Positions 7,909 to 10,517 of a stretch of 64,000 nt of DNA are shown here, in pieces. Position numbers and translations under genes: made by a program. This DNA is from Lachnospiraceae bacterium. Its GTDB lineage: Bacteria > Bacillota > Clostridia > Lachnospirales > Lachnospiraceae. The stretch's first letter is position 1, and every line of letters starts with the position of its first letter. The stretch spans positions 1-64,000 of the forward strand of contig JAEEOJ010000145.1 of NCBI GenBank assembly GCA_016284175.1. The letters run 5' to 3'. A model generated the notes under the pieces. That model made no database searches. It was not told where the DNA came from and worked only from the letters and a program-made list of their open reading frames with translations.

Positions 7909-10077
7909 TTATACTTCGTATCCGGCTTCTTTTACAGCAGCCTTTAAAGTATCTTCGGAAACGCTTCCGTCGGTTTCAACGCTCACACTCTTTTTCTCAA
8001 GATCGGCCTCTGCGGAAATTACTCCGTCAATGGCTTTAAGTGTATCTTCCACGCGCTTCTTGCAGTGAGCGCACATCATTCCGTTAACGGAAAAACTGAT
8101 CATACCTTCTTCCCCGCTTTCTGTTTTCTCAATGTTGCATTCGCAACCTATTCCATTATAATTCTTGTTCAAATCCTTATCAAGTCTCACGCTCATCAGT
8201 CTGAGAGCGTTAAGGCATACGCAGATACTGCTTAAGCTCATGCATGCGGCACCAATCATCGGGTTTAGTTTTAGTCCGATTAAGGGCTGCATTACGCCTG
8301 CTGCCACGGGTATCATCAAAACATTGTAAAAGAATGCCCAGAAAAGATTTTCCTTGATGTTAAGAATTGTCTTCTTTGAAAGTCTGATTGCGCGGATTAC
8401 GTCCAAAAGGTCGCTGTGCATAAGCACGACGTCGGCGCATTCAATTGCAATATCCTTACCTGCACCCATTGCCATTCCGACTTCTGCGGTTGCAAGCGCG
8501 GGAGCATCGTTTATTCCGTCGCCTACCATAAGGACTTTCTTGCCTTCGCTTTGAAGTTCTTTTACGATGCCTGCCTTGTCTTCGGGTTTAAGTTCATATC
8601 TTACGGATGAAACGCCTGCTTCTTCGGCGATTTTTAATGCCTTGTCTTTCTTGTCACCTGTAAGCATGACGGTTTCGAGGCCCATTTCTTTTAGGAGCTT
8701 CATTGCAAGGGGTGAGGTTTCCCTGACTTCGTCCATGCTGACTTCACCCTCGACGGATACAATGCCTTTGGTAACCGTTCCGGTCTTGTCGAAGACAACG
8801 GTGTCTGTATTTTTTAATCTCTCAAGACTTTCAGCACTCTTAAAAAGAATGCCCTTCTTCGCGCCGATGCCCATTCCGACCGTGATTGCAACGGGTGTTG
8901 CAAGGCCGAGCGCGCAGGGGCAGGAAATAACCAGCACGCAGATGCCGTTTGAAAATGCAGTGACAAAATCTTTGGAAATAATGAGCCAAACAACGAAGGT
9001 TATTATCGCGAGAACTATTATCACGGGAACGAAAATTCCCGAGATTTTATCCGCAAGCCTTGCGATAGGCGCCTTGGTGGCTCCCGCTTCCTTGGTCATT
9101 TTGACTATCTTCATAAGTGTCGACTCTTCGCCCACACCTTCTGCTTTTACTCTGACATAACCGTCTTTTATCATTGTGGCGGAAATGACTTCGTCGCCGA
9201 CTTCCTTCTTTACTGCTACGCTCTCGCCCGTTATTGCGGACTCGTCAAATACTGCGCTTCCGAAAATAATCGTTCCGTCCACGCTTGCGGCTTCGCCTTT
9301 TGAAATAAGGATTACATCACCTTTTTTGATGTCTTCAGGTGCAACGGTTTCTTCTTTTTCGTTTCCGTCTTTGTCGGTAACTATTCTTATTATCTTTTTA
9401 GGACACATATCAATCAAACCTTCGATTGCGTCCTTGGTTTTTCTTTTAGACTTTGATTCGAGATATTTGCCGACGGATACAAGTGTTAAAATCATTCCGG
9501 CCGAATCAAAATAAAGATTCATTGAATAGTGTTCTGCGTGCTCAAGGTCACCTTTTTCGCAGCAAATCAAAATCATAAAAAGTCCGAACAGACTGTAGAT
9601 GAGCGCGCATGAAGAACCGAGCGATACCAGTACATCCATGTTGGTTCCGCCGGATCTTAATGCCTTAAATGCATTTATGAAAAAGTGTCTGTTGATGATG
9701 AGTACGGGAATTACCAGAATAAACTGTAAAAGTGCGTTCGTGGAAATATCCCATTTAGGTCCCATGGCGATAACCATGAGTGCGATTATGATAATGACGG
9801 ATGCGATAAGACCGTAGATTTTATAGTCTTTCTCGGGCTTTGCCACCGTTTTCTTTTTTTCCTCACCGCCGATAAGCGATGCGCCGTAACCGGCTTTCTT
9901 TACTGCTTCCTCAATCGCATCGGTATTTGTTTTATTTTCATCAAAAGAGACAAGCATCAGTTCTTCAACCAGATTGACGTTTACCTCTTTTATTCCTTCA
10001 ATTTTTCTGACGGCTTTTTCAACGTTCGCCACGCAGTTCGCGCAGCTCATTCCCGTCACTTTAAAGCTTTTTTTCAT
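7909..10077 (-). CDS. copA: Copper-type P1B-ATPase apparently lacking its nucleotide-binding domain
   Basis: This is a 722-residue heavy-metal P-type ATPase with a metal-binding domain at each end: CANC at 12-15 and CAHC at 669-672. The A-domain motif TGES is present near 284, the membrane metal site is CPC (386-388), the phosphorylation motif is DKTGT (Asp430), and the hinge motif is GDGINDAP near 519. The CPC type points to Cu(I) export. The distance from DKTG (430) to MLTGD (471-475) is about 40 residues, whereas family members normally have roughly 160 because the ATP-binding N-domain lies between. No SEHP-like motif is found. The frame is open throughout, so this is an in-frame loss, not a frameshift. 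The protein may be inactive or depend on another subunit. It has its own promoter and an AGGAGG-like site (GGAGG). Confidence 0.9.
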   Translation of the reverse strand: MKKSFKVTGMSCANCVANVEKAVRKIEGIKEVNVNLVEELMLVSFDENKTNTDAIEEAVKKAGYGASLIGGEEKKKTVAKPEKDYKIYGLIASVIIIIALMVIAMGPKWDISTNALLQFILVIPVLIINRHFFINAFKALRSGGTNMDVLVSLGSSCALIYSLFGLFMILICCEKGDLEHAEHYSMNLYFDSAGMILTLVSVGKYLESKSKRKTKDAIEGLIDMCPKKIIRIVTDKDGNEKEETVAPEDIKKGDVILISKGEAASVDGTIIFGSAVFDESAITGESVAVKKEVGDEVISATMIKDGYVRVKAEGVGEESTLMKIVKMTKEAGATKAPIARLADKISGIFVPVIIVLAIITFVVWLIISKDFVTAFSNGICVLVISCPCALGLATPVAITVGMGIGAKKGILFKSAESLERLKNTDTVVFDKTGTVTKGIVSVEGEVSMDEVRETSPLAMKLLKEMGLETVMLTGDKKDKALKIAEEAGVSSVRYELKPEDKAGIVKELQSEGKKVLMVGDGINDAPALATAEVGMAMGAGKDIAIECADVVLMHSDLLDVIRAIRLSKKTILNIKENLFWAFFYNVLMIPVAAGVMQPLIGLKLNPMIGAACMSLSSICVCLNALRLMSVRLDKDLNKNYNGIGCECNIEKTESGEEGMISFSVNGMMCAHCKKRVEDTLKAIDGVISAEADLEKKSVSVETDGSVSEDTLKAAVKEAGYEV

Positions 10078-10097
10078 GAGTTAGTCCTCCATAACAC

Positions 10098-10126
10098 AGT
10101 ATAACCCATACCCGCTTTATTATCAA
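10098..10126 (-). promoter_or_regulatory. Promoter of the P1B-ATPase gene
   Basis: Read on the minus strand there is TTGATA, 17 bases, then TATACT, a good match to a housekeeping sigma-A promoter. The Shine-Dalgarno GGAGG and the ATG follow closely downstream. The terminator of the upstream RNA candidate ends just before the -35 box, so the ATPase gene is transcribed separately. I saw no clear CopY or CsoR operator by eye. Confidence 0.7.
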
Positions 10127-10128
10127 CG

Positions 10129-10337
10129 AAAAAAGGGACGTATAAACGCCCCTCTTTCCGTCTTATTCTTTCCCTTGAAACCCTCCTGCCAGAAAATTTG
10201 GGACCAAAAGAAAACACGTCCTTTCCTTAAACGCATACCGCCCGTTCAGTCTGTCGTTTATGTACTTAGATTTGCTGTGTCACTGAGAAAGATGCACGAA
10301 TGTGCGGAGTCGGCCCCGAGGATTCTGGCAGGGTGTG
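10129..10337 (-). ncRNA. Structured non-coding RNA candidate, about 200 nt, family unassigned
   Basis: On the minus strand a promoter (TTGAAA at 10366-10371, 17 bases, TAATAT at 10343-10348) is followed by a sequence with no convincing reading frame. A perfect 10-bp closing stem pairs CCTGCCAGAA (about 10332-10323) with TTCTGGCAGG (about 10194-10185). Inside it GGGGCC can pair with GGTCCC, and there are local hairpins GCAC-ATTC-GTGC and TAAACG...CGTTTA. The unit ends in a classic terminator, GGGGCGT-TTAT-ACGTCCC followed by six T, at about 10152-10129. This is the build of a stand-alone RNA gene. The size fits 6S RNA or a raiA-motif-type RNA, but I cannot assign it from memory of the consensus. 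Confidence 0.6.
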
Positions 10338-10342
10338 GAATT

Positions 10343-10371
10343 ATATTACTATATATTATTTATAATTTCAA
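10343..10371 (-). promoter_or_regulatory. Promoter of the structured RNA
   Basis: The minus strand reads TTGAAA, 17 bases of AT-rich spacer, then TAATAT. A start about 7 nt downstream would place the RNA's 5' end a few bases before its long closing stem. The placement relative to the stem supports the RNA call. Confidence 0.6.
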
Positions 10372-10470
10372 TAGTTTTTTGTATATATTTACTAATAAAT
10401 ATACCAATATTGTATCGTTGTTTGTGCACTATGCTGCAGCGTGAACATTATTGCGGCTCATAAAAGAAAT

Positions 10471-10500
10471 AAAAAAAGGACTGACGCAAATCAGTCCTTT
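10471..10500 (-). terminator. Terminator after the activase-related gene
   Basis: Minus strand: AAAGGACTGA, a 6-nt loop, TCAGTCCTTT, then more T. It is a perfect 10-bp stem with a T-run, just after the stop codon of the 415-residue gene. Confidence 0.85.
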
Positions 10501-10517
10501 GATTCTTTTATGATTGT

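Follow-up and report, generated by a model that had tools for sequence, protein, structure and literature searches.

A conserved and repeatedly evolved type of CopA-like P-type ATPase without the nucleotide-binding domain

P1B-type ATPases that lack the nucleotide-binding (N-) domain form a conserved type that evolved repeatedly and occurs in roughly half of the Prevotella species that were searched, as well as in other bacteria of rumen and gut. The member described here is a CopA-type (P1B-1) protein of 722 residues, encoded by a single open reading frame within a 64,000-nucleotide stretch of DNA from a Lachnospiraceae bacterium (the window). To our knowledge, the N-domain is regarded as obligatory in P-type ATPases. 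No description of P-type ATPases lacking it was found in the open-licence full-text literature, and a report elsewhere is possible. Comparison of the sequences suggests that these N-less proteins are probably a real and conserved class of P1B copper transporters, with a short linker in place of the N-domain, Cu(I) transport kept and a phosphoryl donor that would need no N-domain.

Architecture and class of the protein

Pfam assigns the protein two HMA domains and an E1-E2 ATPase domain; of the HAD hydrolase domain, the best-matching stretch is the C-terminal half. The first residues of DKTGT and TGD are 430 and 473. This spacing of 43 residues compares with about 150 (148–157) in full-length CopAs from the genus and order, wherever TGD was found, and with 143 in the source genome's own Zn/Cd ATPase. 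The first-pass annotation had pointed to the closeness of DKTGT and MLTGD (about 40 residues) in an open frame with TGES, CPC, GDGINDAP and two CxxC HMA domains intact, and these observations hold. It had envisaged a gap of 350–400 bp; the loss of the N-domain stands, and the deficit against full-length CopAs is slightly smaller, at about 109 codons (327 bp). Where relatives carry approximately 117 residues with SEHPL and GxG, the alignment leaves about 10 (IVSVEGEVSM) in the window protein, and the P-domain segments on both sides of the junction are present.

The possibility that the N-domain lies elsewhere in the 722-residue protein finds no support: a P1B N-domain profile matched it with an hhalign probability of 0.2%, and the genome's other P1B-ATPase, the positive control, with 99.5%. 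The SEHP (HP) motif and GxG of the nucleotide pocket, both expected of the P1B-1 class, are missing. Absence of the domain rules out ATP binding in the usual way, as had been surmised. The other characters of the class are retained: the copper sites CPC386–388, Y584 N585 and M613 S616 S617, invariant or nearly so; DKTGT, TGD, the Lys and GDGxND in the P-domain; and TGES 283–286 in the A-domain, with Glu285 invariant.

Table 1. Coordinates in the window of the N-less ATPase gene and its features.
Feature	Residues and remarks	Position	Strand
N-domain-less P1B-1 (CopA-type) ATPase	722 aa	7909..10077	−
N-terminal HMA copper-binding domain	aa 1–66; CxxC 12–15	9880..10077	−
A-domain TGES, dephosphorylation motif	aa 283–286; G284 and E285 invariant in 66/66 aligned sequences	9220..9231	−
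TM6 CPC copper site	aa 386–388	8914..8922	−
DKTGT phosphorylation motif	aa 430–434	8776..8790	−
Junction	~10 residues, aa 439–448, IVSVEGEVSM; low-confidence loop in AF2 model	8734..8763	−
MLTGD	aa 471–475	8653..8667	−
N-less-type signature GD[K/R]x[E/D]	K476 (+3), D478 (+5)	8644..8652	−
P-domain Lys of P-x-x-K	Lys501; invariant	8575..8577	−
GDGINDAP Mg-binding motif	aa 519–526	8500..8523	−
TM7 P1B-1 copper site	Y584-N585	8323..8328	−
TM8 P1B-1 copper site	M613-x-x-S616-S617	8227..8241	−
C-terminal HMA domain	aa 661–722; CxxC 669–672	7912..8097	−

An AF2 model of the protein has a mean pLDDT of 82.6, with most of the P-domain above 90 and the junction modelled as a flexible loop. Its best PDB matches are ATP7B and CopA (7xuk, 7r0g). 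The HMA domains, eight-helix membrane part, CPC/YN/MxxSS sites, TGE, DKTGT, TGD, P-x-x-K and GDGxND are common to these pumps and the window protein. The differences are the absent N-domain (about 109 residues fewer, with a junction loop of about 10) and the replacement of TGD-N-x-x-T by [ST]GD-[KR]-x-[ED] in the N-less type. The Zn/Cd (P1B-2) ATPases share the general pump architecture, but the window protein bears P1B-1 copper motifs and groups with CopAs. Five other N-less proteins (L052, L109, L137 and L154 from Prevotella and relatives, and L135) lie near the Zn/Cd type or are scored as cadmium family, so that N-domain loss extends beyond copper pumps. Capless (C0-type) HAD phosphohydrolases are soluble phosphatases with a HAD core and no cap domain, and the cap-like insert of P-type ATPases is the N-domain. 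The window protein would resemble these enzymes in its capless core, which here sits in a membrane transporter.

Conservation within the genus

The N-less form occurs in 10 of 31 genomes of the genus (ten species, the window's own included), at 74–100% identity. Junction spacing is identical in all ten carriers, nine scored by TGD and one by the variant SGD. An eleventh genome (G008) has a copy that is interrupted by a contig end. The 43-residue spacing is not due to chance, since it recurs in the orthologues of the nine further species; homologues with the same deletion, which the first-pass annotation had proposed seeking, thus exist. A full-length CopA, approximately 45–48% identical, is present instead in about fifteen other species of the genus. 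Both forms were not found together in any of the 31 genomes, and no N-less carrier among them has a full-length CopA. The search for a second copA was accordingly negative in the genus carriers, and the suggested dominant-negative role is unlikely because these carriers have no full-length pump to inhibit.

The N-less gene is under strong purifying selection. Pairwise dN/dS is approximately 0.04–0.10 across the gene and 0.007–0.06 in the P-domain, and nears neutrality only in a disordered stretch preceding the last HMA domain. The form is also found in cultured isolates: Lachnospiraceae bacterium G41, Prevotella sp. P5-108, Xylanibacter muris and Bifidobacterium hapali. An assembly error or a recent in-frame deletion in one strain had been considered earlier, and the source genome is indeed a draft of 148 contigs. 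However, the junction is common to ten species of the genus, including an isolate, and synonymous divergence is near saturation between the more distant of these carriers. Together with the cultured isolates and the purifying selection, this leaves an artefact or recent deletion a negligible probability, and both are rejected.

In most genus carriers the gene is flanked by genes for a 2-hydroxyacyl-CoA dehydratase-like protein and a BaiN-like flavoprotein. These two genes are adjacent, with no CopA between them, in two sister species (G017, locus L254; G009, locus L255), so the N-less gene entered or left this site whole. G017 has a full-length CopA at another location. In a very close relative (G021, locus L251) the upstream protein is 99.5% identical and collinearity ends just before the gene, at about position 10469 of the window. 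No CopA match was found in this genome, which indicates that the N-less pump is not essential, that is, dispensable or recently replaced. A match to a CopY-type operator was sought in the upstream region 10078–10517 and not found.

Distribution and repeated loss

A degenerate DNA pattern (DKTGT, a short gap, [ST]GD and GDGxND) was searched in one genome per species of about 85,000 species. It identified at least 119 loci, nearly all of which, when translated, are CPC-type P1B-ATPases with a spacing of 38–48. Four false positives (L095, L138, L153 and L156) are among the matches listed. The sources of the matches listed are mostly rumen and gut Prevotella, other Bacteroidales, Kiritimatiellae, Lachnospiraceae, Oscillospiraceae, other Clostridia, Coriobacteriales and Bifidobacterium hapali. 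The pattern is limited to the Asp codon GAC. It was matched by one of 392 genomes of the window's order, the window's own, and, in the family that includes Prevotella sp. P5-108, by 3 of 251; chance matches are therefore rare, and the restriction to one codon lowers sensitivity considerably. A protein-similarity search with an N-less query (E ≤ 1e-120) found matches in 78 of 150 species of the genus to which Prevotella sp. P5-108 belongs, nearly all of them over the full length. The 30 homologues retrieved from these 78 all lack the N-domain and have spacings of 37–61.

A maximum-likelihood tree of 75 representatives was computed with IQ-TREE, with the N-domain and signature columns excluded. 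It requires 14 changes between N-less and full-length forms, at least nine of them forced by supported branches, and a single origin of the N-less form occurs in 0% of bootstrap trees. Counting alone gives such changes no direction; they are read as losses because other P-type ATPases have the N-domain. At least nine changes on well-supported branches thus mean that the domain was lost many times. The part of the tree that holds the clade of the window's genus lacks resolution, and this clade could not be placed beside one full-length parent.

Conserved catalytic residues and a convergent signature

Glu285, CPC, Asp430, Lys501, GDGxND, the TM7 YN and the TM8 MxxSS are invariant or nearly so in N-less and full-length proteins alike. 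In the pattern-derived set the conservation of DKTGT, [ST]GD and GDGxND is ascertained by design. Conservation of Glu285, Lys501 and the TM7 and TM8 sites is free of this ascertainment, as is that seen in the similarity-derived Prevotella set, where DKTGT and CPC are present in all 30 homologues, chosen by overall similarity and not by motif.

These residues bear on whether the proteins are pumps at all. With the usual ATP site gone and both HMA domains and the membrane copper sites remaining, they might serve as copper-binding membrane proteins (a sensor, a chaperone docking platform or a passive conduit) with vestigial catalytic residues. Vestigial residues should drift; yet few regions are as constrained as the P-domain, and neither the A-domain Glu nor the P-domain Lys has changed through many independent losses. 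A purely sensory or chaperone function, as contemplated in the first-pass annotation, would leave these features and the conserved membrane copper sites unexplained, and a non-pumping role is improbable.

The residues just past [ST]GD converge after N-domain loss on K/R at +3 and E/D at +5. At +3, 62 of 89 N-less proteins have K/R and 47 of 54 full-length proteins have Asn. An acid (E/D) is found at +5 in 82 of 89 N-less proteins, and Glu in 4 of 54 full-length ones. K/R at +3 tracks N-loss in about 7.6 of 9 independent supported contrasts, with none opposed (median p 0.008), and the acid at +5 in about 7.3 of 9 (median p 0.016); these p-values are somewhat optimistic, since the two positions were first noticed in the same data. 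The changes could reflect binding of the donor or a response to newly exposed surface.

Neighbouring genes and the search for an N-domain in trans

Another protein, such as the Zn/Cd ATPase of the same genome, could provide an N-domain in trans, and a Zn/Cd-type P1B-ATPase with an N-domain is present in most carriers. The full Zn/Cd ATPase contains the only P1B N-domain of the ten genus carriers, tethered within that pump. The N-domain profile detected no free-standing N-domain in the genus carriers or in 41 other carriers sampled; all matches in the latter fall within frames of about 400–1050 aa, the size of P-type ATPases. Moreover, 12 of the 41, including Bifidobacterium hapali (G098) and Prevotella sp. 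MGM1 (G068), have no P1B N-domain match in their genomes, drafts that may be incomplete. Provision in trans is thus very unlikely. Five oscillospiral N-less carriers (G061, G071, G090, G092 and G095), unlike those of the window's genus, also have full-length CopA-like ATPases, in frames of 844–1009 aa.

No partner gene is consistent across lineages, and the neighbours are mostly unrelated housekeeping genes. CopZ-like HMA genes adjoin the N-less copies in some Bacteroidia, and an HMA-DsbD-like protein and a small membrane protein are encoded next to the pump in oscillospiral carriers. These HMA neighbours point to copper handling; none of the neighbouring proteins resembles an N-domain. A conserved, membrane-looking protein of about 170–190 aa adjoins the oscillospiral pump (L054:4916-5446, L042:2020-2523, L117:2803-3348 and L144:3537-4112); the L054 copy, searched as a single protein, has no Pfam match. 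In L042 and L117 the HMA-DsbD-like protein lies on the opposite side of the pump.

Proposed mechanism

Cu(I) would be transported through the usual E1/E2 aspartyl-phosphate cycle. The exposed P-domain would receive phosphate from a donor requiring no N-domain. Acetyl phosphate or another small acyl phosphate may be the most economical candidate and is proposed with less certainty than transport itself. Of 25 carrier genomes checked, 23 have acetate kinase; this is compatible with acetyl phosphate and discriminates little, because nearly all fermenters of this kind have the enzyme. When FITC occupies the N-domain ATP site of the H,K-ATPase, ATPase activity is abolished, while acetyl phosphate and pNPP are still hydrolysed (PMC4215238), so that a P-domain can act on small donors without ATP binding by the N-domain.

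The main rival to a small donor is that the P-domain, on its own, uses ATP directly. The triphosphate would be held with low affinity by the P-domain and Mg, and the N-domain would be dispensable at millimolar ATP. The core is intact and highly conserved, and the convergent basic residue beside TGD could hold phosphates. Against this, the His of the HP motif and the glycines and Glu of the nucleotide pocket, all of which belong to the N-domain (PMC5089723), are gone with it, and continued use of ATP seems rather unlikely.

Implications

The NCBIfam model for copper-translocating P-type ATPases (TIGR01511) scores the window protein at 490.9 bits against a cut-off of 397, which is also exceeded by four of five other N-less proteins tested. 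Annotation family models thus name such proteins copper-translocating ATPases and leave the missing ATP site unflagged, which would explain why the domain loss goes unnoticed. It is tentatively suggested that P-type pumps without an ATP-binding domain, run on acetyl phosphate or a similar phosphoryl donor that is not a nucleotide, may have evolved many times in anaerobic fermenters and be common in Prevotella; the 'ATPase' would then not be an ATPase. Either the P-domain can be charged without an N-domain, and the minimal engine of the superfamily would have to be redefined, or the N-less proteins serve another role with a preserved phosphorylation cycle.
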